A stretch of DNA of 64,000 nucleotides from Sediminispirochaeta smaragdinae DSM 11293 (GTDB lineage: Bacteria; Spirochaetota; Spirochaetia; DSM-16054; Sediminispirochaetaceae): contig NC_014364.1 of assembly GCF_000143985.1 (NCBI RefSeq), forward strand, positions 1-64,000, written 5' to 3'. The notes below the pieces were generated by a model that saw only the letters and a program-made list of their open reading frames with translations, was not told the DNA's origin and searched no databases. The translations under genes and the position numbers were made by a program. Positions 5,039 to 40,618 of the stretch are shown one piece after another; within the stretch, counting starts at the first letter, position 1; the number at the start of each line of letters is the position of its first letter.

Positions 5039-6796
5039 ATGGACAAAAGAACTTTGCTGGCGGTTATTCTTTCAACCATTGTTATTTCCGTCGGTTTCAT
5101 GATTCAAAATACGTTTTTTGCTCCTCCCCTTCCCGAGTCACCGGCTGTTACAGAACAAGCCGAGGCCTCCGGGAATACAAATGCTTCCGATGGATCTGTT
5201 TCATCGAATGATAATTCTCAACAGCAGCCGACGGCTCCTGTTTTACAGGCCCAAGGTATCATTCCTTTTGGTGATGAGCCTGGGGAGAAGATGGTTTCTC
5301 TCGACACAAAGGTATTTAAAGCAACCTTCAGCAGCCGAGGGGCTCTTTTGACCAGCATGAAGTTGAAAGAGCACTTTGAAAATGGAGAGCCGCTGGAGAT
5401 GATTTGGCGGGGAAACGATGCAGAGGGGGCTTTCGGTATATCTTTTGGTGGACCGGAAAGAGAGATAGCACATGTTCCGTTTTTTGTCCGGAATATCGAT
5501 GAGAATACGCTCGAATTTTACCGTGAGTTTGCAGTACAAACCTCTTCAGGTCCCGTTCCCTTCACTTTGACCAAGCGTTTTCGGTTTAATCCTTCCGATT
5601 ATCTTTTCGAGGTCTTGGTTAAGATTGAGAATAGTGTGAATGCCTATCCAGCCCTCGACGAAGATGGGTATGCCTACACGCTATCCTTTGGTCCTCAGAT
5701 TGGTCCCCAGGTTGAAAAAATGGATGGTAGATATGCCTATCGTCGTTATTTTACCTATGAAAACGGGAAACAGAAAAATTATCGAATGAAAAACGGTTCT
5801 GTTTCCGTTGATAATCGGGTAAGTTGGGCTGCCGTACTTGGAAAGTATTTTGCGGTTATCGGGGTTCCCGATGCAACCGACTATGATCTTCTTTTTACCG
5901 AAGGTTCCGAGCCCGGTTTGCCGACAACTTCGCGACTTTTCTTTTCCAGACCTCCTCTGAAAAGCAGCGTAAGCGAGGATGTTTTTCGTTTTTACATGGG
6001 ACCGAAGATCAGCCGTGTCCTGACACAGTACAACGATCCGGATAAAAATGGCTTCGGAACTCGTGACCTTCATCTTGAGGAGGTTATGGACCAGGGCCGT
6101 TTGCTTGGCTGGCTTGAGGTCATAATGAAAAAGTTGCTTGTCTTCTTTTATTCGATTATTCCAAATTGGGGTGTAGCCATCATTCTCCTTACCATTTTGG
6201 TCAAGGTCGTATTGTTTCCGATAACACATAAAAGCTACGAATCGACTAGTAAGATGCAGATGCTGCAGCCCAAGATGAAGGAGATTCAGGATAAGTATCG
6301 GGACAACCCGAACAAAATGAATCAGGAAATGGCGGAGCTTTATAAACGGGAAAAAGTGAATCCTATGGGAGGATGTCTTCCCATGCTTCTTCAAATGCCG
6401 ATGTTCATTGCCATGTACGGCCTTTTTAACAAGTATTTCGATCTTCGTGGCTCCTCGTTTATTCCCGGTTGGATTACCGACCTGTCGAGTCCCGAATCAG
6501 TATATAGTTTTGCACCCTTCAAAATTCCGATTCTGGGATGGAGCGATATACGGTTGCTTCCTATGTTTTTCGTTGCAACGATGATTCTCTCCAGTAAGAT
6601 GACGCAAAGTCCCTCGTCTGCAGGAAGCCAGAACAGTAGCATGAAGATGATGACCTACATGATGCCTATCTTTTTCTTCTTCTTTCTCTACAATGCTCCC
6701 TCCGGTCTGCTGGTTTACTGGATTGTTACCAACGTGCTGACGATAGGTCAGCAGAAGGCAATCTCAAAGATACAGAAGCGTAAGGAGGAAGGGTGA
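5039..6796 (+). CDS. yidC: Membrane protein insertase YidC
   Basis: YidC inserts and folds inner-membrane proteins, alone or with SecYEG. The 585 residues have the layout of Gram-negative YidC: an N-terminal membrane anchor (about 5-24), a large periplasmic beta-sandwich domain (about 70-350), then a conserved C-terminal insertase core starting near LVFFYSIIPNWGVAIILLTI (about 372). A cytoplasmic charged hairpin rich in K, M and Q follows. The last two membrane helices include MPIFFFFFLYNAPSGLLVYW. The linker after the first helix is S/N/Q-rich. AGGAGAAGG precedes the ATG. It is the third gene of the rpmH-rnpA-yidC-jag string. Confidence 0.97.
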   Translation: MDKRTLLAVILSTIVISVGFMIQNTFFAPPLPESPAVTEQAEASGNTNASDGSVSSNDNSQQQPTAPVLQAQGIIPFGDEPGEKMVSLDTKVFKATFSSRGALLTSMKLKEHFENGEPLEMIWRGNDAEGAFGISFGGPEREIAHVPFFVRNIDENTLEFYREFAVQTSSGPVPFTLTKRFRFNPSDYLFEVLVKIENSVNAYPALDEDGYAYTLSFGPQIGPQVEKMDGRYAYRRYFTYENGKQKNYRMKNGSVSVDNRVSWAAVLGKYFAVIGVPDATDYDLLFTEGSEPGLPTTSRLFFSRPPLKSSVSEDVFRFYMGPKISRVLTQYNDPDKNGFGTRDLHLEEVMDQGRLLGWLEVIMKKLLVFFYSIIPNWGVAIILLTILVKVVLFPITHKSYESTSKMQMLQPKMKEIQDKYRDNPNKMNQEMAELYKREKVNPMGGCLPMLLQMPMFIAMYGLFNKYFDLRGSSFIPGWITDLSSPESVYSFAPFKIPILGWSDIRLLPMFFVATMILSSKMTQSPSSAGSQNSSMKMMTYMMPIFFFFFLYNAPSGLLVYWIVTNVLTIGQQKAISKIQKRKEEG

Positions 6797-6835
6797 TGAA
6801 TGTGACATCCCGTTTACTCCAAGGAGATAAAATAT

Positions 6836-7519
6836 ATGGTAAAAGAATTCGAAGGAAAGACCGAAAAGGAGGCGATCGATAACGCAGTTTCAGCACTGAA
6901 TATTGACCGTGAAGAGTTTGACGTTGAGATTGTCGAATCCGTTAAGGGCGGCCTTTTCCGAAAAGGTGCAGTAAAGATCAGGGTTTTTATTGAAGACGAC
7001 GATGATGGCTTTGATGTCGGCGATCGTTACAGCGAAGATGTTGATCCTCAGGCCCAAGACGATTTTGAAAAGGCCTCGGTGACGTTTCTTGAAACACTGA
7101 TCGAAAAGATGGGTTTTCCTGGTACGGTTTCCATCAATTTCAGGGAAGAAAAGAAAATTGGTTTAACGATTGATTCCCAACATTCCGGTATTCTGATAGG
7201 AAAAAAAGGAAAAAATCTTGATGCATTGCAGCTTTTGGTTAATGTGTATTGCGGGAAGCTGCATGAGGGACGCCGAGTTATTGTCGATGCTGAGAATTAT
7301 CGAAGCAGGCACGAGGAAAGCATTATCCGTCTTGCCGACAGAACTGCGGCACAGGTACGGAAGACTAAGCGTTCCCGGCTCCTTGAACCGATGAATCCCT
7401 TTGAAAGGCGATTGGTCCACACTACCTTGAATGATATCGATGATGTGGAAACCAGGAGTGAAGGCGAAGGCCTTTATAAACAAGTCCGGATCATTTACAA
7501 GGGTTCGGCAAACTATTAA
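6836..7519 (+). CDS. jag: RNA-binding protein Jag/KhpB
   Basis: A 227-residue cytoplasmic RNA-binding protein of the Jag (KhpB/SpoIIIJ-associated) family. Visible domains: an N-terminal Jag_N domain with EFEGKTEKEAIDNAV and KGGLFRKGAVKIRV (about 4-50), a KH domain with the GILIGKKGKNLDALQ loop (about 117-131), and a C-terminal R3H domain with RRLVHTTLND and SEGEGLYKQVRI (about 180-223). A charged linker of Asp residues lies between Jag_N and KH. It follows yidC by 39 bp, the usual linkage. The gene is closed by the terminator hairpin at 7547-7573. Confidence 0.95.
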   Translation: MVKEFEGKTEKEAIDNAVSALNIDREEFDVEIVESVKGGLFRKGAVKIRVFIEDDDDGFDVGDRYSEDVDPQAQDDFEKASVTFLETLIEKMGFPGTVSINFREEKKIGLTIDSQHSGILIGKKGKNLDALQLLVNVYCGKLHEGRRVIVDAENYRSRHEESIIRLADRTAAQVRKTKRSRLLEPMNPFERRLVHTTLNDIDDVETRSEGEGLYKQVRIIYKGSANY

Positions 7520-9729: not shown

Positions 9730-10791
9730 TTATGTGAGAAGTCTGATTTTGGTGAAGATGTAATCAAGAGAGTCTCGTTTTAGTACCGTTCGAAAAAAAC
9801 CGGTGTTATCCAGTTGAGAGGTGTTTTTCCCGTCGTTTTTCCGGTATTTTTCATCGACGTCTTCATTGAACCAGTGAACAAGCGATATTTTTCCTCCTTT
9901 GATTTCTATCGCCGTCATTCCTCGCTTTCCGATTACGCAGCCGGAATTAAAAACGGAAGGAGCAAGGGTCTGGCTGCTGTACAAAGAACTTATTGCCTGC
10001 TCTTTGCCCTTTGTCATGATGGATTTGTCGATCTCTTTTTTGATTTCCTCGATTTGCTTTTCAAGAAACTTTTGTTTTTCGTCACCGGATTTTGCATATC
10101 TGCGCAGAAGATTTTCGATTTTGTATTTAAGAGAGTCGAGTTTTGAAAGGGATTCAAAAAGGGGGCGATGGGTATGGCCGATGATGGATACGATGTTTTT
10201 TTCAATGGAGAATTCGTAGGTCCGCTTTTCGATTTTAAAGCGCCTGCCTTTATCGTGTGCGACCGAATAGTGTTTGATTCGTAAGGGTTTTGCAATGAAG
10301 CGGAGCAAAAGGCCCGATATTTCATTGAATTTTTCGTAAAAATAGCTGGGCTGATGGCCATGGAAGAGAAAAAGCGTCATACCCTTATAATTCAACTTGA
10401 GTGATTCGTAGAGTTTGTAGCGTAGGGGCTCTCCAGGGAGGTTAAAAAGTTTCGAATCATGATTACCCGAAAGCTTATAAAGGCGATTTTCCGCATCGAA
10501 TGCATCAAAAAGCGAATATAGGCTCTTCCATGTAGAGCGGATTTCGGCAAGTGTATAACGATGGAGCTCCTCAATATCTCCGTTGAGGATGAGGGTATAT
10601 CCTTTTTCATAGTAGTAGTCATGGAGAGCGGTCTGGAAGAGTTTGGCATTGGGACGAAAGTCGTCTCCATATTTCCCGTTTCCGACGTGAAGATCGCTGA
10701 AGATGACAAACCGCTGATTGTCATGTATCTCAATCTCTTTTGCCTTTGTGTAAAGCTCTTCGAGCTTGAGATGATAGAATTGCTTGTTCAT
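9730..10791 (-). CDS. Calcineurin-like metallophosphoesterase
   Basis: A 353-residue cytoplasmic phosphoesterase with the full metal-binding set of the calcineurin superfamily: FSDLHVGNG (D-x-H, near residue 31), NGDIEELHRY (GD, near 70), SGNHDSKLF (GNHD, near 108), FHGHQPSY and SIIGHTHRP (GHxH, near 200). A charged coiled segment of about 50 residues (LRRYAKSGDEKQKFLEKQIEEIKK) is inserted after the last motif, unusual for small members. The substrate cannot be told from sequence. It runs convergent to lysO and downstream of the EIIA-like gene on the same strand. Confidence 0.85.
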   Translation of the reverse strand: MNKQFYHLKLEELYTKAKEIEIHDNQRFVIFSDLHVGNGKYGDDFRPNAKLFQTALHDYYYEKGYTLILNGDIEELHRYTLAEIRSTWKSLYSLFDAFDAENRLYKLSGNHDSKLFNLPGEPLRYKLYESLKLNYKGMTLFLFHGHQPSYFYEKFNEISGLLLRFIAKPLRIKHYSVAHDKGRRFKIEKRTYEFSIEKNIVSIIGHTHRPLFESLSKLDSLKYKIENLLRRYAKSGDEKQKFLEKQIEEIKKEIDKSIMTKGKEQAISSLYSSQTLAPSVFNSGCVIGKRGMTAIEIKGGKISLVHWFNEDVDEKYRKNDGKNTSQLDNTGFFRTVLKRDSLDYIFTKIRLLT

Positions 10792-10865
10792 ACTATTCTT
10801 AAATATAAAAAATTGATGACCCTTTTGTGAATAGTATATGAAAAAATGGTTAGTTGAAGTGGCGG

Positions 10866-11339
10866 CTATGTTCGTATCGGGATGGTGCAGCCACGCTGCT
10901 TAAAAAGAAGGTAAACCTGCTCGGCTGTAACACAGTGCATGATTTTTTCCCTGAATGAATCGTTGCGGAGCAAACGGACAAGGGTTGAGAGGGCGCTTAA
11001 ATACTCCAATTGTGTTTCCGGAGGATTTGCAACAAGAAAAAGAAGGTGGACGGGTTGAGAATCAATGGCATCATACTCAATTCCTTCCTGACTGATTCCC
11101 AAGGCAACGTAGACTTGATCGATTCCCTGACAGGTTCCGTGAGCAACCGCAATACCCTTGCCGAGACCGGTGCTCTGTAGCAGCTCCTTTCTCATTACTT
11201 CACAATAGAAATCGTCAGCCCAAGGTTTGTTTGCAAATTGTCTTGCATGTGAAATGAGCTCGAGAATGGCCTGGGACTTATTTGTCTTGGATAGCTGACA
11301 GATGCCGTTTTTCCCAATCAACCTGCATAAGGTAACCAT
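10866..11339 (-). CDS. PTS EIIA (fructose/nitrogen-type) domain protein
   Basis: A 157-residue single-domain protein resembling PtsN/fructose-type EIIA. The motif GKGIAVAHGT (about residues 64-73) contains the candidate phosphorylated histidine. SQPVHLLFLVANPPET and YLSALSTLVRLLRN are the usual following helices and strands. No EIIB or EIIC gene is nearby, so it is probably a regulatory EIIA rather than a sugar transporter part. The ATG at 11339 with GGTGG before it is preferred over the upstream start at 11387. It is divergent from the ferredoxin gene. Confidence 0.8.
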   Translation of the reverse strand: MVTLCRLIGKNGICQLSKTNKSQAILELISHARQFANKPWADDFYCEVMRKELLQSTGLGKGIAVAHGTCQGIDQVYVALGISQEGIEYDAIDSQPVHLLFLVANPPETQLEYLSALSTLVRLLRNDSFREKIMHCVTAEQVYLLFKQRGCTIPIRT

Positions 11340-11410
11340 AAAACCACCTATAGTATAATATCGACATTTTGTAGCTTTTACAAACAAAAAAAAGCAGATA
11401 CTCTTTTCTC

Positions 11411-11728
11411 ATGGCAACACTTATCGTAGAAGGATACGACAGGCTTATTACCGCAAGCCCGGCAATTTCTTTGCTTAATACCCTGCTTAGGGAAGGTATC
11501 CCAATTTCCCACCTCTGCGGAGGAAAGGCCCAATGTGGTACCTGCAGGGTGAAAATCCTTGACGGGGAGTCTTTTTGTAGTCCGATGGGTGAGAGGGAAC
11601 GTCTGCGCCTTTCCGGAAAAGAGGGAACACTTCCGGAGTCTGTCCGGCTTGCATGCCAAACCTATATCAGAGGCAGGGTTGTGGTACGGATACTCGCCTC
11701 CGGTCGTTCCCTTGACAAAAAAGAATAG
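11411..11728 (+). CDS. 2Fe-2S ferredoxin domain protein
   Basis: A 105-residue plant/adrenodoxin-fold ferredoxin. The cluster ligands are C36-x5-C42-x2-C45 (HLCGGKAQCGTCRV) and C82 (RLACQTY), with an extra C56. The soluble protein has no signal peptide or second domain. Similar small domains feed electrons to reductases or occur fused to cyclases, but no partner is adjacent: the neighbours are an EIIA-like protein (divergent) and a LacI regulator. Electron-transfer function is well supported; the partner is unknown. Confidence 0.88.
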   Translation: MATLIVEGYDRLITASPAISLLNTLLREGIPISHLCGGKAQCGTCRVKILDGESFCSPMGERERLRLSGKEGTLPESVRLACQTYIRGRVVVRILASGRSLDKKE

Positions 11729-11759
11729 ACAGGTGGCGAGCATTCGTTTATCATTGTAA

Positions 11760-11773
11760 TGGAACCGGTTCCA
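11760..11773. promoter_or_regulatory. LacI-type operator candidate before the LacI gene
   Basis: TGGAACCGGTTCCA is a perfect 14-bp palindrome with a central CG, the typical symmetry of LacI-family operators. It lies 21 bp before the regulator's start codon, so autoregulation is likely. Confidence 0.65.
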
Positions 11774-11794
11774 ATTAATTGATTGAAGCGTATC

Positions 11795-12805
11795 ATGAAA
11801 AAGCAAACGATAAATGATGTTGCCCGTCTTTCGGGAGTGGGTAAGGCTACGGTTTCTAGGGTTTTTTCAGGTTCTCCTCTTGTTTCAGAAGCCACAAGGG
11901 AGAGGGTGTTGGAGACTGCACGTGAAATTGGTTATCATCCTAATCCCGTTGCACGTGCTCTGACTACCGCGAAGACCGGGAATATTACCATCGTCCTTCC
12001 GAGCCTTCAGTCCTTTGTTATGTCGCAGATCGTTAGGGGTGCCATGTTCGCAGCCAACAAAAACGGCTACAGCCTTTTTGTTCTTGATTCGGGTGAGGAT
12101 TCGGATAAATCCGGAGCCGATTACTCGGACCTACTCCATGAACACGCCAGCGACGGTGTCATATTCTGCTATGAAAGCGCCCGTCAGCAGATGGAGTCGG
12201 TTTCATTACGTCGTCCAGTGCTTTTTCTGGAAAGTACTCCGACAAAGGAGAGTCTGGATTGCATACGCACGGACAACAGGACAGGGATGCGGCTTTTGGT
12301 TGAGTATCTTTTTGAGCTCGGACACAAGCGCATTGCCGCTGTTTTTGGAAGGCGAAGTCCCTACTCGGAAAACCGCTATATCCACTTTATTGCTGCAATG
12401 GAAGGCGTTGGTTTACCGGTAACCGAGGATCATCTTTTGTTTAGTAATTGGGCCATTGAAGATGGATATCGAGATTTCCGTTCTCTTATGGGCCTTCCAT
12501 TTTCATCTCGGCCGAGTGCTATTGTTTTTATATCGGATTTTATGGCAACCGGTGCACTTCGTGCTGCAGCCGATATGGGGATTGCGGTGCCAGATGAGGT
12601 TAGTATTGCCGGCACCGACGATGCCGAAACAAGTGCCTTTCTTATTCCCGGGTTGACTACCCTTGGTTTTGACCCCCATGGACTTGGGGAAAAGGCAGTG
12701 GAGCAGCTGATACGACGAATACAATATCCCGATGAGGAGGCTCTGCATCTTGTTGTGCCGGTTACGTTACGAAAACGGGGTTCCACCGGCCCGGTGAAAT
12801 GGTAA
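11795..12805 (+). CDS. LacI-family transcriptional regulator
   Basis: A 336-residue regulator with the LacI helix-turn-helix and hinge at the N terminus (QTINDVARLSGVGKATVSR, about 4-22, then ERVLETAREIGYHPNPVARAL). A periplasmic-binding-protein-like effector domain follows (about 60-330), with the typical ITIVLPSLQSF start and the TDDAETSAFLIPGLTTL segment. The start at 11795 is chosen over 11783 because it gives the normal MKKxTINDVA beginning. A perfect palindrome lies 21 bp upstream. Its regulon may include the Fe-alcohol dehydrogenase downstream, though a 150-bp insertion-like element separates them. The effector is unknown. Confidence 0.93.
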   Translation: MKKQTINDVARLSGVGKATVSRVFSGSPLVSEATRERVLETAREIGYHPNPVARALTTAKTGNITIVLPSLQSFVMSQIVRGAMFAANKNGYSLFVLDSGEDSDKSGADYSDLLHEHASDGVIFCYESARQQMESVSLRRPVLFLESTPTKESLDCIRTDNRTGMRLLVEYLFELGHKRIAAVFGRRSPYSENRYIHFIAAMEGVGLPVTEDHLLFSNWAIEDGYRDFRSLMGLPFSSRPSAIVFISDFMATGALRAAADMGIAVPDEVSIAGTDDAETSAFLIPGLTTLGFDPHGLGEKAVEQLIRRIQYPDEEALHLVVPVTLRKRGSTGPVKW

Positions 12806-12812
12806 TCCTTTT
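12802..12812 (+). repeat. Left 11-bp direct repeat flanking the MITE-like element
   Basis: GTAATCCTTTT, which contains the TAA stop of the LacI gene. An identical copy is at 12963-12973, on the other side of the 150-bp inverted-repeat element. The pair looks like a target-site duplication. Confidence 0.75.
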
Positions 12813-12962
12813 ATAGTGTTCGGAATCCTGGTGGTCAAAGCCTCTCAATTTTTTTTGTTGCCGTCAATTACAGAGTATAGGGGCATACGATCAAGCAATC
12901 CTGGAAACCTAAGGATTTTTCCGGGAAAGACGGCATGAAACCACCAGGATTCCGGACACTAC
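12813..12962. mobile_element. MITE-like element with 22-bp terminal inverted repeats
   Basis: The ends 12813-12834 and 12941-12962 are inverted repeats matching at 20 of 22 positions. Their core is GGAATCCTGGTGG / CCACCAGGATTCC and the outer part is TAGTGT. The 150-bp unit is bracketed by identical 11-bp direct repeats (12802-12812 and 12963-12973). It has no reading frame of note. Internal pairings TGCCGTC (12859-12865) with GACGGCA (12929-12935), and AATCCT (12897-12902) with AGGATT (12912-12917), mean its RNA could fold along its whole length. Small size, inverted ends and flanking duplication fit a non-autonomous miniature transposable element. A structured RNA or regulatory cassette remains possible. 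Confidence 0.7.
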
Positions 12963-12973
12963 GTAATCCTTTT
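12963..12973 (+). repeat. Right 11-bp direct repeat flanking the MITE-like element
   Basis: GTAATCCTTTT, identical to 12802-12812. Together they form the apparent target-site duplication of the element in between. Confidence 0.75.
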
Positions 12974-12981
12974 GTCTATTA

Positions 12982-12998
12982 TCCGGCCATGAGCCGGA
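12982..12998 (+). promoter_or_regulatory. Small inverted repeat before the Fe-alcohol dehydrogenase gene
   Basis: TCCGGC (12982-12987) and GCCGGA (12993-12998) form a 6-bp inverted repeat with a 5-nt spacer, 32 bp before the gene start. It could be an operator half-site pair or a leader hairpin. Confidence 0.35.
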
Positions 12999-13030
12999 AG
13001 GAAATCCAGATTTGGTAAGGAGCATAAGCA

Positions 13031-14173
13031 ATGAAAAAAGCGATTCTGAATCTTCCCACCGCCCTCTACTGTGGGCGGGGTTGTCGCTCTGGCCTTGCGG
13101 AGTGTATCCCTCAGGAGGCGAAGGTTGCGCTGGTAACGGATAAGGGGCTGGTCGGCGCGCCCCCTCTGGATTTGGTGACAACGATTTTCGATGAGGCAGA
13201 TATTTCCTGGAAGCTAATTTCCGATATCGATCCCAACCCCGATGAGGAAACAGTACTTAGGGTAGTCAAAGCGGTTAAAGCAATGCAGGCCGACGTTATT
13301 GTCGCCATAGGCGGGGGAAGCCCCCTCGATACTGCGAAGGCCGCTGCTTGCATGGCACGGAACGATGGACCGCTTTCAGACTACCAGTGGGAGGGAAAAC
13401 CCTTTGTCAATGCCCCCCTTCCGCTCTATGCGCTGCCGACAACCGCAGGTACTGGTAGTGAGGTGACGGGAGTGGCCGTCATCACCAGCAGAAACATGAA
13501 AAAGGGCATTAATGCCAGGGAGATTTTTCCCAAAGCCGCTTTTGTAGACCCTGAGTTGATGATAGGCCTTCCACCCTATCTTACCGCGATCACCGGAATG
13601 GATGCCCTGACCCACGCCATAGAAGCCTATGTCGGCTTAGGGGCCAACCCATTTTCCGATGCGCTTTGTGAAAAGGCCATCGAATTGATTGCGGATCATC
13701 TTCCCCGAGCCTTTTCTTATGGCGGGGATATTGAGGCGCGGGAGGCGATGGGTACTGCCAGTTCTCTTGCCGGCCTTGCTATGGACCAGGCAGGGCTCGG
13801 CATCGTTCATAGCCTTTCAAGTCCTGTTTGTGCCTATCTCCATGTTTCTCATGGCTTGGCAAATGCCATGCTGCTACCACATGGAATGCGATACAATCTG
13901 CCGGCCCGACATGAGAAATTTGCCGTTGTTGCCGAATTGATGGGGTATGATACCACCGGCATGACTCCCCGGGATGCGGCTGAGGCGGCTGTTGTTGCTG
14001 TGGAAGATTTGCTGGAAGAATTGGAGCTCGGCTCCGCAATTGAGGAGGTCGTACACAATGCGGTCGACTTCGAGGAGTTCGGGAACAATGCCTCCAAGAT
14101 GTTTCTCATCCGGAACAATCCCCGAGGTGCCGATTCCAAGGCCTGTCGCTCGATCTTCGAAACAATTTTCTAA
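13031..14173 (+). CDS. Iron-containing alcohol dehydrogenase
   Basis: A 380-residue group III alcohol dehydrogenase, reducing aldehydes or oxidising alcohols with NAD(P). The N-terminal dinucleotide-binding part shows [15 protein letters not shown] (about 95-109) and [12 protein letters not shown] (about 137-148). The C-terminal metal-binding part shows [14 protein letters not shown] (about 195-208) and [16 protein letters not shown] (about 273-288) with the metal-ligand histidines. The family includes 1,3-propanediol, lactaldehyde and butanol dehydrogenases, and the substrate cannot be fixed here. AAGGAG precedes the ATG. It ends convergent to msrB, with the two stop codons overlapping. Confidence 0.93.
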
Positions 14174-33150: not shown

Positions 33151-33370
33151 GGATGGCTCCTTAGTTTGTATCGTTACGCCACTATAGTACCATATACCGG
33201 TGCGAGCTCATATCTTTTTGACTGAAAATTAAGAAAAGGGGGCCGATTTTTGTCACGTGAGGGACTATCCTATTAGTATCTTTGAAGCTTTAAATTGAGA
33301 AGCCTGATAAAAAAATGATGAAAAAAATAGGACAAACTATTGACGGTTTAAAATGAGATGGGTATTTTTT

Positions 33371-33390
33371 GTTACCGAACGGTCGGTAAC
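33371..33390. promoter_or_regulatory. TetR-type operator candidate before the RND operon
   Basis: GTTACCGAACGGTCGGTAAC is an inverted repeat with 9 of 10 paired positions. It has the ACCG...CGGT symmetry common in TetR/AcrR operators and ends 5 bp before the ATG of the tandem TetR gene. Binding here would block transcription or translation of the whole efflux operon. Confidence 0.7.
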
Positions 33391-33395
33391 TTTAT

Positions 33396-34613
33396 ATGAC
33401 AGATAAGCAGAAACGAAGAAGAGAAGAGATCATCGAAACTGCATTTCGGGTGTGGTCGGAGAGCTCGTTTAAAAAGACCAGCCTCTCAGCCGTTGCAACG
33501 CGTATGGGAATAAGCAAAACAGCGTTGTATCGCTACTTTTCGGGAAAAGAGGCGTTGCTTCAGGCCATGGAAGAGTATTTTCTTCGTTTGTACAACCACT
33601 TATGTGATGAAGTGATCAGGCATCGAGACGAAAGGAGTGTTGCAGAGGCCCTGGAGGCGTATAACCGCATTTTTGTAGGTTTTTTTGCGCGGAATTCTCA
33701 TTACCTCCGGTTTGCTCAGATTCGCTTTATCAGAAAGCCCCAAGTCGGGGATTCCTTTCTGGCCATGACCTTTCGGAGAAATATGGATCTTTTTCCTGCT
33801 GAGCCTCTTGCAAGGGAATTCGGCTGGAGAATGGCGCAGATACCGGTTATCGTTCGTTATATACTGTCGGTTTCGAATTTTCTTCTTGCCGTCGAACACT
33901 GTGGAAACGAAGAAATAGCGGGGGGTGCTGAGAGCCTTCTGGAAGTAAATCGCCGCTTGATTATCTCGGGTATCAGCTTGAACCGTGATCGTCAGATACC
34001 CGATTTTCAGATGATCGAGGAGCGATGTATCCTTTCCGAGGGGGATTTTCCCGAAACCGATCGGGTGACTTATGCCGTAAGCGAGGTGGTTGCTGAGAAT
34101 GGTCTTTGGAATACCACGGTGGAAAAAATCGCGCATCGGCTGGGGATGAGTAAAAGTAGTCTTTACTTTTACTTCGAGAATCGTGACGAGATGCTGTGGA
34201 AATTGATTGAGCAGGAGCGGCAGGCTTTTGGCGCGTTGGTCATTAGGGATATTGAACCAATGGAGTCCTTTTCCGATCAGCTCTATGCTTATTTTGTATT
34301 GCATGCGCGCTATTTGTGGGGACGGCCGGAGTTTTTAGCAACGATGAACTGGTATCGCTTCCAGGATATCGCTTTCCATCCCCCTGAGGATCCGATCTCC
34401 AGCGTGATCAGATTTTATCGATTTGTCGAAGAGGCAGTTGAAGCGGGCGTTATGTCGGAGAAGGTCCCTTTGCTCAGTTTTCTTCGTCTTTTAAATTTTT
34501 TGCTGATGCAGGAGCTTTCCGAACATTTTCGACGCGGTAATGATTTTAATCAGCTTTTTCCGATCCTGCGGACGCTGCACCAACTTTTGCTGTATGGAGT
34601 ACAAGGAGCGTAA
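33396..34613 (+). CDS. Tandem (double) TetR-family regulator
   Basis: A 405-residue protein built of two TetR-like units of about 200 residues each. Unit 1 has its HTH at about 26-52 (TSLSAVATRMGISKTALYRYF). Unit 2 has a second HTH at about 240-265 (TTVEKIAHRLGMSKSSLYFYF). Each HTH is followed by an all-helical ligand-type region. Ordinary TetR proteins have one HTH and act as homodimers, so this chain may work as a built-in pseudo-dimer. No frameshift separates the halves. It lies 3 bp before the TolC-like gene and heads the efflux operon. An operator-like palindrome abuts the start codon. Repression of the pump is inferred. Confidence 0.88.
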   Translation: MTDKQKRRREEIIETAFRVWSESSFKKTSLSAVATRMGISKTALYRYFSGKEALLQAMEEYFLRLYNHLCDEVIRHRDERSVAEALEAYNRIFVGFFARNSHYLRFAQIRFIRKPQVGDSFLAMTFRRNMDLFPAEPLAREFGWRMAQIPVIVRYILSVSNFLLAVEHCGNEEIAGGAESLLEVNRRLIISGISLNRDRQIPDFQMIEERCILSEGDFPETDRVTYAVSEVVAENGLWNTTVEKIAHRLGMSKSSLYFYFENRDEMLWKLIEQERQAFGALVIRDIEPMESFSDQLYAYFVLHARYLWGRPEFLATMNWYRFQDIAFHPPEDPISSVIRFYRFVEEAVEAGVMSEKVPLLSFLRLLNFLLMQELSEHFRRGNDFNQLFPILRTLHQLLLYGVQGA

Positions 34614-34616
34614 ATA

Positions 34617-36143
34617 ATGAAACATGCTTGGTTCTTGCTATGCGCGGCGATGTTGTTTCCCGCCGCTCTGTTTGCCGGCGGAAGCCGGGAAAGCGGGACT
34701 GATACGGATTTTTCTTCTCTTGACGAATTGAAAGAGTTTGCAACCCCCTCTTTGGATGAGAACGCGATAGAACGGGCGGTGAACTCGCAAGCTCCTGCGG
34801 ATATCGCAGACGGAGCAGGTGAGGCTGCATTGCTTTCCAGGGAACGCATGCGGCAGAAGGAGGAGTTGACCGTTGATGTGGAGAAGGCGGTAGGTCTGGC
34901 ACGGGAATACAACCTGAGTCTGAAGTCCAGCCAGCTTGGTCTTGTTAAGAAGCGCCGGGCCCTGAGCACGGTCTGGAACAGTTTTCTTCCGACGTTACAG
35001 GTTTCAACGACGCTGAAGAGGATGAATGAGGCACCAACCAGTTTTGATTTTACTACCTTTTCGGCCTATGAGCTTTCCCGCTGGAATCAGAGCTTCGGAG
35101 TCGATGCGAATCTTTATTTGAATCTGGCACTTTTCGACGGAATTACCGCGACGAGGTTGAATTATGAGTCGGGACTTGTCGATTATGAGCAGGCGCGGAA
35201 GCAGCTTGAGCGGGATGTGCGCAAGAACTTCTACAACCTCTTGTTGATGCAGCAGAACCGGGATCTCTTCGTGCAGCAGATTGCCGCTGCCAAGGACCGT
35301 TACGATCAGGCGAGGATCAACTACCAGAATGGTCTGGTTCCTGAACTGACGATGCTCTCGGCCAGGGTCGCCTGGGAGAATTTGAAGCCGACTCTGGAGT
35401 CGATGGATCTTAGTTACGATCAGGCTCTTTCCGGTTTCAAGATGACCTTGGGGCTCTCCCAGGATACGGAGCTGCATCTCGACGGTGAGATTTCGGCCGA
35501 TCCCATCGCTCTTGAAGCCGATCCGCTGATCGATCAGTACCTTACCGGAAGGCTCGATATCAAGTCGCTTCTGTACAATCTCAAGAACTTGGATGTACAA
35601 CGTCGTGCGACCATCTCCCAGGCCTTTACCCCGGGTCTTACCGTAGGCTGGAGCTATGATCCGACCATGAACGACCCTTTTGGCGGGGATTATTTCAATT
35701 CGGACAGCTGGGACCAGCAAAGTGGGATGTTCCGAATCACGGTTGCGATGAATCTGGAGGGGTTTCTGCCCGGCAGCAAAACAAAGGTTGAGCTGGCCGG
35801 TATAGAAGACGATAAGAGGAGCCTTCGGCTCAGTCTGATGCAGGCGATCGAGGGAGCCGAAATGGAGATTGATTCGCTTGTAAAACAGTTGAACCATTCG
35901 AAAAACAGCATGGATAGCCTTAAACTTAATATCGAACTGGCAGACCAAGCGTATCGAATGGCGGAGGAGGCCTACCGTGCCGGAAGCCGGGAACTTTTAG
36001 AGGTGCAGAATGCCGAGATCGAGCTCAATAATGCGAAATACGAGCTGCTGAAGGAGAAGTACAACTACGTGACAGGCTTGTTGGACCTTGAATATGCGTT
36101 AAATACAACGCTGGATAAGATAAAGGAAGGAAACGATGAATAG
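34617..36143 (+). CDS. TolC-family outer-membrane efflux protein
   Basis: Outer-membrane channel of a tripartite pump, 508 residues. The signal peptide is about 1-20 (MKHAWFLLCAAMLFPAALFA), then GGSRESGTDTD. Two OEP repeats follow, recognised by the long helices AVGLAREYNLSLKSSQLGLVK (about 95-115), ARINYQNGLVPELTMLSARV (about 235) and ADQAYRMAEEAYRAGSRELLEVQNAE (about 440-465). The acidic N-terminal extension (about 21-85) is unusual. AAGGAGCG precedes the start. It overlaps the adaptor gene by 8 bp. Confidence 0.92.
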   Translation: MKHAWFLLCAAMLFPAALFAGGSRESGTDTDFSSLDELKEFATPSLDENAIERAVNSQAPADIADGAGEAALLSRERMRQKEELTVDVEKAVGLAREYNLSLKSSQLGLVKKRRALSTVWNSFLPTLQVSTTLKRMNEAPTSFDFTTFSAYELSRWNQSFGVDANLYLNLALFDGITATRLNYESGLVDYEQARKQLERDVRKNFYNLLLMQQNRDLFVQQIAAAKDRYDQARINYQNGLVPELTMLSARVAWENLKPTLESMDLSYDQALSGFKMTLGLSQDTELHLDGEISADPIALEADPLIDQYLTGRLDIKSLLYNLKNLDVQRRATISQAFTPGLTVGWSYDPTMNDPFGGDYFNSDSWDQQSGMFRITVAMNLEGFLPGSKTKVELAGIEDDKRSLRLSLMQAIEGAEMEIDSLVKQLNHSKNSMDSLKLNIELADQAYRMAEEAYRAGSRELLEVQNAEIELNNAKYELLKEKYNYVTGLLDLEYALNTTLDKIKEGNDE

Positions 36144-37101
36144 GAAAACCGCAGGGCTTTTGCTGATGCTCTTTGCACTGCTGATCTTTGTTACCGGATG
36201 CGATAAGCTTCCCGGTCGGGGAAACAAGGAAAATGCTACCGAAGCAGGATCTGAGAAGGATGCAGACGAGAACACGGAAACGGTCTTTGCCGTGAGTGTT
36301 ACCGAAGCAGTTACGGGCCAGATCTACAACTATCTCAATGTAAATGGCGATGTCGTTTCAAAGACGACGGTCGATACCTATCCCGATGTAGCGGGAAAGG
36401 TAAGCAGGATTCTGGTAGCAGTGGGGGATACGGTTCGGAAGAACCAGGTTGTTGCGGAGGTGGATCCCTCAAAACCCGGTATGAACTATGCGGCAAGTCC
36501 GGTGAAGGCTGCCATTACGGGGACAATAACCAGTATTCCCGTGGAAGTCGGTTCCATGGTAAGCCAGCAGTCTCCGATTGTGAGAATCAGCAGGATGGAT
36601 GAGTTACAGATCAAAACCTATGTTGCCGAACGCTTTATCAGCAGGATGAAGCTGGGGCAGCAGGCTTTGGTTAGTCTTGATGCCTTTCCCGGCAAAACCT
36701 TCATGGCCAAGGTTGTTGAATTGAGTCCCATGGTGGACGCCTCCAGCCGAACCATGGACCTGAAGCTTGATTTTGTCGGTTCTACCGATGGGGTGAGAGC
36801 CGGAATGTTCGCTAAGATCAAAATCATTACCGAGGACAAGGAAGGGGTCGTAAAAATTCCTTCGGCAGCGGTTATCGAACGCTTTGGTGAAGACTATGTC
36901 TTTGTAATAAAAGATGAGTCCAGTGTTGAAAGGCGTAAGGTGACGGCCGGTATTGAGATCGATGGCAAGCAGGAGATCCTGGAAGGGCTTTCCGGTGGTG
37001 AGACCACCGTTATCAGGGGCCAAACACTTCTTGAAGACGGCTCTTTAGTGAAAGTCGTTCAGAAGGTAGAGCCTCTGCCCGTTAAAGATTCTATCGACTA
37101 A
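36136..37101 (+). CDS. RND efflux periplasmic adaptor (membrane fusion protein)
   Basis: A 321-residue adaptor joining the pump to the outer-membrane channel. The N-terminal lipoprotein signal is LLIFVTGC (lipid-modified Cys at about 22). A biotinyl-lipoyl-like hairpin (AGKVSRILVAVGDTVRKNQVVAEVDPS, about 84-110, and ITGTITSIPVEVGSMVSQQSP, about 128-148), a beta-barrel (KLGQQALVSLDAFPGKTF) and a membrane-proximal domain follow. The coiled-coil hairpin is nearly absent, so this is a short adaptor. It is the third gene of the efflux operon. Confidence 0.92.
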   Translation: MNRKTAGLLLMLFALLIFVTGCDKLPGRGNKENATEAGSEKDADENTETVFAVSVTEAVTGQIYNYLNVNGDVVSKTTVDTYPDVAGKVSRILVAVGDTVRKNQVVAEVDPSKPGMNYAASPVKAAITGTITSIPVEVGSMVSQQSPIVRISRMDELQIKTYVAERFISRMKLGQQALVSLDAFPGKTFMAKVVELSPMVDASSRTMDLKLDFVGSTDGVRAGMFAKIKIITEDKEGVVKIPSAAVIERFGEDYVFVIKDESSVERRKVTAGIEIDGKQEILEGLSGGETTVIRGQTLLEDGSLVKVVQKVEPLPVKDSID

Positions 37102-37115
37102 TAACGGAGTTTTGT

Positions 37116-40100
37116 ATGAGCGTATCAAAAACCGTCGTTGGCAAGCCAACGACGATACTTATCATTTTCCTGCTTTTAATCGGCCTCGGTATCTATTCCA
37201 CGAGTGACCTGGCCATTGATCTCTACCCGGAGATTGAACCACCTGTTCTTGTTGTATTTACCGGATATGACGGTGCGGGGCCCGAGGAAATTGAGAAACG
37301 GATTACCCGAACCCTTGAAGGTTCTCTGTCGAACGTAAGCAACATCGAGAGTATCACCTCGACGAGTTCGGAGGGGAGCAGCATGATCATGGTTGAGTTC
37401 ACGTGGGGGACCGACATGGCCGAGGCTGCGAACAGCGTTAGAGACAACCTGGAATTTGTCAAAGGTGCCCTTCCCGACGAAGCCGACAGCCCCATGATCT
37501 TCAAATTTGATCCGTCAATGATTCCGATTATGGGTTTGACCTTGTCGGGGAACAGGACCCCTGAAGAGTTACGGCAGATTGCCGAGGATGTGGTGCAGCC
37601 GAAGATCGAACAGATCGAAGGAGTCGCCCTGACAAGTGTAAGCGGCGGACGGGAACGGATTATCAGGGTTGAGATCCCGCAGGACCGCCTGGAGGCCTAT
37701 GACCTTACACTTACGCAGATTTCCAGCATGTTGCAGGGACAGAATGTACAGGTCACTGCCGGAAATATTGATGAAGGGAATATCAATTATCTGGTTACCA
37801 CCAGTGGTGAATATGACAGTATCGATCAGATCAAGAATACGGTCATTAGTTATAAAAACGAAGGTATGCCCGGAACAAGCGGAGACGGTTCTACACAGCG
37901 TACGGTTCGGCTCCGGGATATCGCCGATGTATACGACGGCTATAAAGATGCGGACAGCCTTGTCTATATAAACGGAGAGCCGGGGATACAGATCATCATT
38001 CAGAAACAGAGTGGTACCAATTCCGTCCAGACCGCGGACAATATTCGGAACAGGCTCGAGCGAATCAATAAACAGGTCCCCGAAGGAATTACGGTAACGG
38101 AGATTTTCAATACGACGGATATCATTAAGTCGTCCCTTAATCAGGTTTCAAGTAGTGCCATTACCGGCGCCCTCCTGGCGATTATTGTTTTATTTGTCTT
38201 TCTGCGGAGCCTGAAAAGTACCTTTATCATCGGCCTGACAATCCCTGTTTCGCTGATTGTTACTTTGATGCTGATGTACTTTTTCGGACTTACCCTTAAC
38301 ATTATGACCTTGGCTGGCCTTGCCCTTGGGGTTGGGATGCTTGTCGATAACTCCATCGTTATTCTTGAAAATATCTATCGCTACCGGGAGAAGGGGGCTA
38401 AGCTAACGGCCTCCGCCATACTCGGCAGCCAAGAGATGATAAACGCCATAGTCGCGTCTACGCTGACCACTATCTGTGTATTTGCCCCAGTCGTATTGTT
38501 CAAGAGCCAGCTTGATGTGGTCGGAGAGTTGCTTGCTTCTCTCGCTTTTACCGTTGTCATCAGCCTCTCCGCCAGTCTTGTGGTTGCCGTGACCTTGATT
38601 CCCGTTCTTTCGAGCCACTACCTTCCGCTGACAAGCCGCAGACAGCGCCCCTTGCGGGGAACCCTCAAGGCCCTCGACGGGGTAATGGAGCGTTTTTTCC
38701 AGGGACTTGAGAATCTTTACGCATCGATCCTCAGGGGTGTGCTTCGGCATAAGATTATAACGATTGTCGTGGTGCTTGCTGTCTTTCTCTCTTCCCTTAC
38801 ACTTATTCCGAAGACTGGCTTTGAATTTATGCCAAGTATGCAGGAGGATCAGGTTAACCTGGGTGTGGAACTTCCGGTGGGAACAAAGCTTGAAATCACC
38901 GAAACGGTCATCAAGCAGATGGAAGATATTGTTCGCAGCGAAGTGAAGGGGTATGATGATATCATTACCGAAGTGGGGGAAGCCTCCTTCTTCGGCCTCG
39001 GCGGAAGTGCTATCGGCTATAAAGGGAGCATCAGGATCATGCTGCCTCCCTATAAAGAGCGCATCGACTCTTCCGATGATGTGAAACAGAAACTGCGTAA
39101 ACACTTCAACGATTTTCCTTCGGCGGTATTTTCCTTCGACAGCAGTCAGGGGGCAAGTTTCGGCGGAACAACGCCCATCGATATTCTGATAAAAACCGAA
39201 GATTTGACCAAAGCAAAGGATATCGCGGAAAAGATTCGTGATATTCTGCAAAACATGCCGGAGGTGACGGAACCTCAGATCGATCTGAAAGACGGACTTC
39301 CTCAGGTAGAAATTGTCATGGATCGAGACAAGATGTACTCCCTTGGCCTTAACGTTTACTCGGTAGGCCAGGAGATTCAGGCAAATCTCGACGGTATTAC
39401 CGCAAGCCAGTTCCGTGAGGGTGGAAACGAATACGATATCGTCATGTTTCTTGCCGATGAGGATAGAAATCAGATTCTCGATTTGAATAAGGTTTTCGTC
39501 AATAATCAGGCAGGACAGCGTATCCCTCTTGCCAGCTTTGCCAGGTACCAAAAGGGAACCGGGCCGATTACCATCAATAGAGAGAATCAGACCCGTGTTG
39601 TACATGTAACAGCAGGAACGGTACCCGGAACGGCCCTGAACGAGGTGGCCGACCGTGCCCAGCAGCTGATTAATCAGGAAATCCCTGCCGATGAGGATGT
39701 ACTCATTGAGTTCTCCGGTGATTATGAAGATTTGCAAAAGTATGGCATGAGATTTGTTGCAATCATTCTTGTTTCCGTGTTCCTCGTCTTCGGGGTCATG
39801 GCCAGCCAGTTTGAGTCCTTTGTCGATCCGTTTATTATTCTTTTTGCGATTCCGCTTTCTATGATCGGCGTTATTCTGATCTATTTTCTTACCGGGCAGA
39901 TCTTCAACATCTTGACGGCGGTCGGTCTGGTTATGCTTGCGGGAATTATCGTGAACAACGGGATTGTACTGGTAGATTATACCAATTTGCTGAGAAAACG
40001 TGGAATGAATATCCACGATGCCTGCGTGGAGGCGGGGAGAAACCGACTCCGGCCGATCCTTATGACGACGCTGACAACGGTCCTCGGATTGGTTCCCATG

Positions 40101-40325
40101 GCCTTTTTCCCTGGTGAAGGTTCGGAACTTGTGCAGCCGATCGGCAAATCGGTGGTGGGCGGTCTTTCGGTTGGCTCTCTTTTCACCTTGCTTCTCATTC
40201 CTGTGATATATGCAATTGTTAATAGGGTTGGTGAGCGCCGTCAGGAAAAACGGGAGGCACGTAAACTTGCCAGACAGAAGAATCGTTTGGAAATTGAAGC
40301 ACAGTGCAAAGGAGATGAGGCATGA
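37116..40325 (+). CDS. RND-family efflux transporter permease
   Basis: A 1069-residue inner-membrane proton-driven pump of the AcrB/HAE type. Both halves of the family's twelve-helix layout are present: TM1 (about 12-30), a porter domain starting VFTGYDGAGPEEIEKRITR, TM2-6 from about 340, then the second periplasmic loop and TM8-12 from about 885. The proton-relay TM4 reads GLALGVGMLVDNSIVILENIYRYRE with D411; the second acidic residue of AcrB is N here, as in many pumps of this branch. A basic cytoplasmic tail (RRQEKREARKLARQKNR) ends the protein. Substrate unknown. ATGA overlap with the next gene. Confidence 0.95.
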   Translation: MSVSKTVVGKPTTILIIFLLLIGLGIYSTSDLAIDLYPEIEPPVLVVFTGYDGAGPEEIEKRITRTLEGSLSNVSNIESITSTSSEGSSMIMVEFTWGTDMAEAANSVRDNLEFVKGALPDEADSPMIFKFDPSMIPIMGLTLSGNRTPEELRQIAEDVVQPKIEQIEGVALTSVSGGRERIIRVEIPQDRLEAYDLTLTQISSMLQGQNVQVTAGNIDEGNINYLVTTSGEYDSIDQIKNTVISYKNEGMPGTSGDGSTQRTVRLRDIADVYDGYKDADSLVYINGEPGIQIIIQKQSGTNSVQTADNIRNRLERINKQVPEGITVTEIFNTTDIIKSSLNQVSSSAITGALLAIIVLFVFLRSLKSTFIIGLTIPVSLIVTLMLMYFFGLTLNIMTLAGLALGVGMLVDNSIVILENIYRYREKGAKLTASAILGSQEMINAIVASTLTTICVFAPVVLFKSQLDVVGELLASLAFTVVISLSASLVVAVTLIPVLSSHYLPLTSRRQRPLRGTLKALDGVMERFFQGLENLYASILRGVLRHKIITIVVVLAVFLSSLTLIPKTGFEFMPSMQEDQVNLGVELPVGTKLEITETVIKQMEDIVRSEVKGYDDIITEVGEASFFGLGGSAIGYKGSIRIMLPPYKERIDSSDDVKQKLRKHFNDFPSAVFSFDSSQGASFGGTTPIDILIKTEDLTKAKDIAEKIRDILQNMPEVTEPQIDLKDGLPQVEIVMDRDKMYSLGLNVYSVGQEIQANLDGITASQFREGGNEYDIVMFLADEDRNQILDLNKVFVNNQAGQRIPLASFARYQKGTGPITINRENQTRVVHVTAGTVPGTALNEVADRAQQLINQEIPADEDVLIEFSGDYEDLQKYGMRFVAIILVSVFLVFGVMASQFESFVDPFIILFAIPLSMIGVILIYFLTGQIFNILTAVGLVMLAGIIVNNGIVLVDYTNLLRKRGMNIHDACVEAGRNRLRPILMTTLTTVLGLVPMAFFPGEGSELVQPIGKSVVGGLSVGSLFTLLLIPVIYAIVNRVGERRQEKREARKLARQKNRLEIEAQCKGDEA

Positions 40326-40618
40326 AATTGTTACGTGTTGAGATCATTGCCAACCGTTCTATCGAAGAAGATATGCATGATGCGTTTCGTAAGGCGGGAA
40401 TTGTGCGTCATTATACGAAATTTCCTGTGGTTCATGGGGTCGGTACTTCCGGCCCCAGGCGGGGTGATCATGTTTGGCCCGAGGAGAATTTTGTTCTTAC
40501 CACCTATTGTGAGGAGGAAGAACTCGACGCTATTGTCGACGTGGTGCGCGAATTAAAGGATTTTTTCTGCGACGAAGGGATAAAGGTTTTTGTTTCAAAG
40601 GCAAAGGAAATTCTATGA
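40322..40618 (+). CDS. P-II-like transporter-associated protein (PG0541-like)
   Basis: A 98-residue soluble protein with a ferredoxin-like/P-II-like beta-alpha-beta pattern: MKLLRVEIIANRSIEEDMHDAF, then a loop with HGVGTSGPRRGDHVWPEENF (about 39-58) and the strand VLTTYCEEEELDAIVDVVREL. It resembles the small PG0541-type proteins found after RND genes. The 4-bp overlap with the RND gene indicates coupling, and regulation of the pump by a bound ligand or metal is the likely role. A terminator follows directly, making it the last gene of the operon. Confidence 0.72.
   Translation: MKLLRVEIIANRSIEEDMHDAFRKAGIVRHYTKFPVVHGVGTSGPRRGDHVWPEENFVLTTYCEEEELDAIVDVVRELKDFFCDEGIKVFVSKAKEIL

Follow-up and report, generated by a model that had tools for sequence, protein, structure and literature searches.

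The locus considered here raises the question of whether HTHs that share a chain can diverge and take their DNA site with them, and it would make that question addressable. A TetR homodimer is confined to symmetric sites. In the stretch of Sediminispirochaeta smaragdinae DNA that we analysed (64,000 nucleotides, hereafter the window), a first-pass annotation had described two complete TetR units in one 405-residue chain, encoded beside genes for TolC-type, adaptor, RND and P-II-like proteins, and had proposed that the fused HTHs might read an asymmetric site. The features on which our answer is built are collected in Table 1.

Table 1. Features of the tandem TetR locus and its efflux operon (positions are those of the window).
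Feature	Positions	Strand	Basis
Sigma-70-like promoter: TTGACG (33340-33345), 17 nt, TATTTT (33363-33368)	33340-33368	+	9/12 consensus matches
Operator GTTACCGAACGGTCGGTAAC	33371-33390	.	unique in genome, conserved near tandem TetR gene starts
Operator half alpha (GTTACCGAAC)	33371-33380		
Operator half beta (GTTACCGACC)	33381-33390	-	
Tandem (double) TetR regulator, 405 aa	33396-34613	+	ORF, Pfam, AlphaFold model, homologues
HTH1, residues 30-48, recognition helix SKTALYRYF	33483-33539	+	model helices 30-37, 41-45
HTH2, residues 242-260, recognition helix SKSSLYFYF	34119-34175	+	model helices 242-248, 253-258
TolC-type outer-membrane efflux protein (OEP)	34617-36143	+	Pfam PF02321, E 5e-38
RND periplasmic adaptor (membrane-fusion protein)	36136-37101	+	TIGR01730 above cut-off
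RND inner-membrane pump, AcrB/AcrD/AcrF family	37116-40325	+	Pfam PF00873, E 2e-249
PG0541-family P-II-like protein	40322-40618	+	NF045581, E 3e-28, above cut-off

The regulator gene is one uninterrupted frame, and Pfam TetR_N (PF00440) matches its product in two stretches (E 7e-25, 86.9 bits against a cut-off of 24). Compared with solved TetR structures, the family profile places residues 7-195 on 3vpr and residues 216-404 on FadR 5gp9, each half being near full length, and the profiles of the N and C halves align with each other lengthwise (E 5.5e-18, 15% identity). The whole single chain was modelled with AlphaFold2 on 44 family members (pLDDT 90.1, pTM 0.88); in the predicted model an all-helical ligand/dimer domain follows each HTH, and the C-terminal helices (146-168, 177-193, 359-380 and 384-404) lie in the expected place of the TetR dimer bundle. 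This predicted model is compatible with an intramolecular pseudo-dimer sitting on one site. Mean column identity of the regulator across the family is 23%; K41, A43 and R46 are near-invariant in HTH1, as are K253, S254, L256 and Y257 in HTH2. The description given by the first-pass annotation is thus borne out by Pfam, by the profile of each half and by the predicted fold. Its HTH positions (26-52 and 240-265) were right, the model having them at 30-45 and 242-258, and the whole-chain prediction as a monomer, which it had set as a test, gave a second HTH that is folded as TetR and kept family-wide.

Tandem TetR matches at E<=1e-12 were found in 94 of the 395 Spirochaetia genomes sampled. In 60 loci the gene (some 380-450 aa, with variable predicted starts in a few cases) lies directly upstream of the OEP, adaptor, RND and PG0541 genes, with the same order and strand in nearly all, the exceptions being contig ends or interrupted genes. 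It had been suggested at the outset that homologues might be split into two genes and the fusion be a sequencing error, and a survey of tandem TetR proteins beside RND genes had been proposed; we reject this possibility, since the protein is one chain in nearly all homologues across Spirochaetia (exceptions: L034 and L124). In the first of these exceptions, which is the closest relative and belongs to the same genus (genome G025), the tandem TetR gene is interrupted at 6143-7352 (frames of 175 and 251 aa) and the RND gene is interrupted too, at 9879-13074 (frames of 518 and 541 aa), with operator and promoter intact; the interruptions are either sequencing errors of a draft assembly or operon decay. 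At another locus (L041, 9699-14766), the tandem-TetR operon has a divergent neighbour that encodes a single-domain TetR, an adaptor and a second RND pump, and that offers a natural comparison of the single-domain and tandem types of regulator.

As for the origin of the chain, a scan of one genome per species listed only spirochaetes, many of them Treponema, as best full-length matches; among the matches listed, the only ones outside spirochaetes were tandem proteins without RND neighbours, in Hoyosella (L186) and Pseudonocardia (L212). When the halves were placed separately in a FastTree phylogeny, the N halves formed one clade and the C halves another, and these two clades were each other's closest relatives, with 56 single TetRs placed outside them (support 0.86). 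The actinobacterial halves, from two sampled proteins with long branches, paired together and apart from the spirochaete halves. A likelihood test prefers the spirochaete N and C halves together, a preference which cannot prove duplication. With moderate confidence, we think that these comparisons point to an internal duplication within spirochaetes, independent of Mce3R. In the open-access literature we found no earlier report of a spirochaete tandem TetR family.

The OEP, adaptor and RND genes stand together, making this a tripartite RND efflux operon, and the last gene is a member of the PG0541 family (97.5 bits against the NF045581 cut-off of 45). With the P-II-like gene included and the order beside the regulator kept across spirochaetes, the locus is indeed a self-contained efflux operon, as had been annotated. 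The adaptor gene starts 8 nt before the OEP gene ends (36136/36143) and the PG0541-family gene starts within the RND gene, with 4 nt of overlap (40322/40325), which suggests translational coupling. Neither the drug nor the metal subfamily is matched by the RND protein above its curated NCBIfam cut-off, and the scores do not assign a substrate class. The PG0541-family protein has a mean column identity of 59% across 23 loci, with an invariant WPE motif, and is much better conserved than the regulator (the two figures coming from different locus sets); it may act on the pump after assembly. That the pump is regulated by the tandem TetR is suggested by position and conservation.

The putative operator has two perfect 8-bp arms around the four central bases ACGG, among which one pair (33379/33382) is mismatched, and the annotated palindrome with a single imperfect position is therefore confirmed. 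The promoter-like element ends 2 nt before this repeat, which would put the expected transcription start, as judged from a consensus match only, inside the operator; the promoter sequence is unchanged in the same-genus locus L034. Searching with the pattern GTTAMCGAnnnnTCGKTAAC from 400 bp upstream to 90 bp into the gene, we found 72 sites with at least 13 of the 16 positions near tandem TetR gene starts, against 0.28 expected in shuffles. Of the 61 tandem TetR genes compared (the window plus 60 loci), 57 have an operator with at least 14 of the 16 fixed positions near their start. The exact pattern is present in 56 of the 395 Spirochaetia genomes (reversed control, 1/395), and 55 of these 56 carry a tandem TetR, G106 alone being without one; 52 come from the homologue list (E<=1e-12), and three more (G300, G365 and G390) were added by profile search. 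This near-exclusive co-occurrence argues that the operator belongs to the tandem TetR. Across the 4.65-Mb genome (a single contig of 4,653,970 bp) there is one copy of the family pattern, and within the 64-kb window there is no second site with up to 3 mismatches; a large regulon in S. smaragdinae is rejected on account of this single operator site. We conclude that the module of regulator, operator and operon is real, widespread and well-defined.

Several operators elsewhere deserve mention in their own right. In G106, the genome with no detected tandem TetR, the site (L160, at 1834) is followed after about 60 bp by an Omp85/POTRA gene and may be a chance match. Three Treponema-type genomes (G143, G306 and G352) have a second operator copy upstream of a VTC-domain/DUF4956/CotH-kinase cluster (L162, operator at 1643; L163, at 1436; L245, at 2015), these domains being called by Pfam except in L245, where the cluster was recognised by sequence likeness alone; this suggests that the tandem TetR may have recruited a second target in those three genomes. 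Also in G352, and away from the tandem TetR, a pair of divergent genes flanks a perfectly palindromic site, GTTACCGAATATTCGGTAAC (L244, operator at 1933). In four other Treponema-type loci (L074, L076, L091 and L092), the tandem TetR is preceded by a pair of neighbouring operator-like sites.

We think that the regulator is probably a one-chain TetR pseudo-dimer that represses locally the five-gene efflux operon to which its own gene belongs. Within one polypeptide, the N- and C-terminal units would pack against each other, with their HTHs placed as in a normal TetR homodimer, and this pseudo-dimer would bind one 20-bp near-palindrome covering the expected transcription start, blocking transcription of its own gene together with those of TolC, adaptor, RND and PG0541. 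A ligand, probably a pump substrate, would enter the pocket between the halves, so that the DNA would be released and the pump turned on. Repression of its own operon with release by a pump substrate is, by analogy with TetR-type pump repressors and with Mce3R, the most likely mode of action; DNA binding, repression and ligand release are what we infer, as is the pairing of the halves within one chain rather than between chains. Separate coding would have let the two HTHs diverge, and most lineages now have a lopsided operator, one half being strict and the other looser.

To describe this lopsidedness, each operator was written as two 10-base halves and 75 sites were compared. At 56 of them just one of the two halves has A at position 9, with 37 expected if halves were paired at random (p 5e-5); the excess is kept when sites are collapsed by genus (37/51, p 0.001) or by family (31/43, p 0.002), families still sharing ancestry. 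In the asymmetric sites the half with A9 is near-fixed as GTTACCGAAC, the other being GTTA[C/A]CGA[C/T][C/T], and the A9 half is also stricter at positions 5, 8 and 10 (Fisher p 0.015, 0.026 and 0.0014). The pattern occurs in both orientations relative to the gene, even within the window's own family: the alpha half is upstream in the window and downstream in L035. The single imperfect position of the window's operator is not noise, the same lopsided centre recurring across families. The idea that fused HTHs read an asymmetric site is supported in that respect, but the halves of the window's operator are near-identical (9 of 10 bases) and 6 of the 75 operators are perfect palindromes, from which we conclude that asymmetry is common and dispensable for the protein.

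Which HTH would read which half can be approached through the recognition helices, that of HTH2 starting with a near-invariant KSS and that of HTH1 with K-x-A, where x is P, A, T or Q. In the collapsed set, an A5 half is present at 12/12 sites with Gln42 and at 1/13 with Thr42; by genus, residue 42 (Q/T) against position 5 of beta (A/C) gives 10/2 and 0/8 (p 0.0007), and within families p is 0.043. Other columns, such as 241, associate with the half-site as strongly by descent alone. An arrangement with HTH1 on beta and HTH2 on alpha fits the variable residue 42 and the invariant KSS, and we regard it as a lead only. Only tentatively do we put forward the fuller scenario of a spirochaete-own one-chain TetR, born by internal duplication independently of actinobacteria, in which HTH2 would read the fixed GTTACCGAAC and HTH1 would co-evolve with the variable half (Gln42 with A5, Thr42 with C5 and Lys46 with T9).

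The lopsided operator may instead reflect selection for moderate affinity, or common descent, and not differential reading by the two HTHs, an account that we find quite conceivable, if somewhat short of probable. Where total affinity is under stabilising selection, a strong half can be favoured together with a weak one, but this account is less readily reconciled with the same pattern in either orientation to the gene and with deviations at several positions falling in the same half. When HTH1 residues 42 and 46 were tested against beta on independent phylogenetic pairs, which were few, their covariation did not reach significance, as this account would have it; against it, KSS of HTH2 is near-invariant like alpha and position 42 of HTH1 is variable like beta.

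We consider it unlikely that the protein forms a between-chain or domain-swapped dimer, with N-N and C-C heads for two different sites and one head (say N-N) on the palindrome at 33371. A symmetric head is expected to have a near-symmetric operator, and the few perfect palindromes fit it, but deviations from consensus gather in one half-site, which a symmetric reader does not predict. Two adjacent operators are present at some loci (e.g. L074 and L076), whereas most, including the window, have a single operator, with no second conserved motif noticed. Until the structure of Mce3R was solved, between-chain pairing had been stated as an alternative for that protein too (PMC11667970); its halves pair within one chain, however, and the single chain of the tandem TetR is predicted here as a compact unit (pTM 0.88). 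Finally, an RNA hairpin or attenuator in place of a DNA operator is very improbable: the repeat lies where the transcript is expected to begin and is flagged as resembling a terminator, its tail being short and T-rich, but it is defined by conserved bases and not by pairing alone, near-fixed across families, its distance to the start codon varies with no consistent T run, and its centre is kept non-complementary in most lineages.

The dozens of matched protein-operator pairs in this second, widespread one-chain lineage would allow a direct test of what fusion buys. Moreover, an efflux operon common to many spirochaetes now has a searchable operator, in a group whose gene regulation is little studied.

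Among known systems, Mce3R alone is matched in the PDB at E<=0.001, the alignment spanning 430 columns (TM 0.57 by query and 0.60 by target); with an rmsd of 7.9 A, the halves are arranged differently from those of Mce3R or are not placed with certainty. The other PDB matches listed are single TetR chains over about 180-210 columns. In Mce3R of M. tuberculosis (PDB 9b7y), a single polypeptide forms an M1-M2 TetR whose two HTHs share one site, with a single ligand pocket and autoregulation (PMC11667970). Like Mce3R (~406 aa) and the actinomycete double TFRs, our protein has two TetR units with two non-identical HTHs in one chain, fused and conserved as such. Mce3R controls mce3/lipid genes and binds two non-palindromic sites of 25 bp each; our protein, by contrast, has a single near-palindrome, in some loci a perfect one, and an RND pump operon. 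The non-palindromic operator is a feature of Mce3R itself and is not known to be a trait of double TFRs in general. With its near-palindromic operator, our protein shares the architecture of Mce3R and is not an Mce3R orthologue; common descent of both halves is not recovered in the FastTree phylogeny, with two actinobacterial proteins sampled.

The single-domain repressors of RND pumps (AcrR, MtrR, TtgR and NalD) have near-palindromic operators. They resemble our protein in the fold of each half and in the kind of target operon, but they are homodimers of ~200-aa chains, and the tandem TetR scores far below the curated cut-offs of the NCBIfam AcrR and MtrR models. P-II-NG genes cluster with CzcABC pumps (PMC7726332), and the last gene of our operon is likewise a PG0541-family member beside an RND pump; the reported PG0541/P-II-NG cases are metal pumps with other regulators, whereas here the regulator is a tandem TetR. 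A one-chain double TetR is therefore not new in principle, Mce3R being the solved precedent. What is new here is a second, spirochaete lineage, apparently of separate origin, with a near-palindromic, lopsided operator and an RND pump operon.
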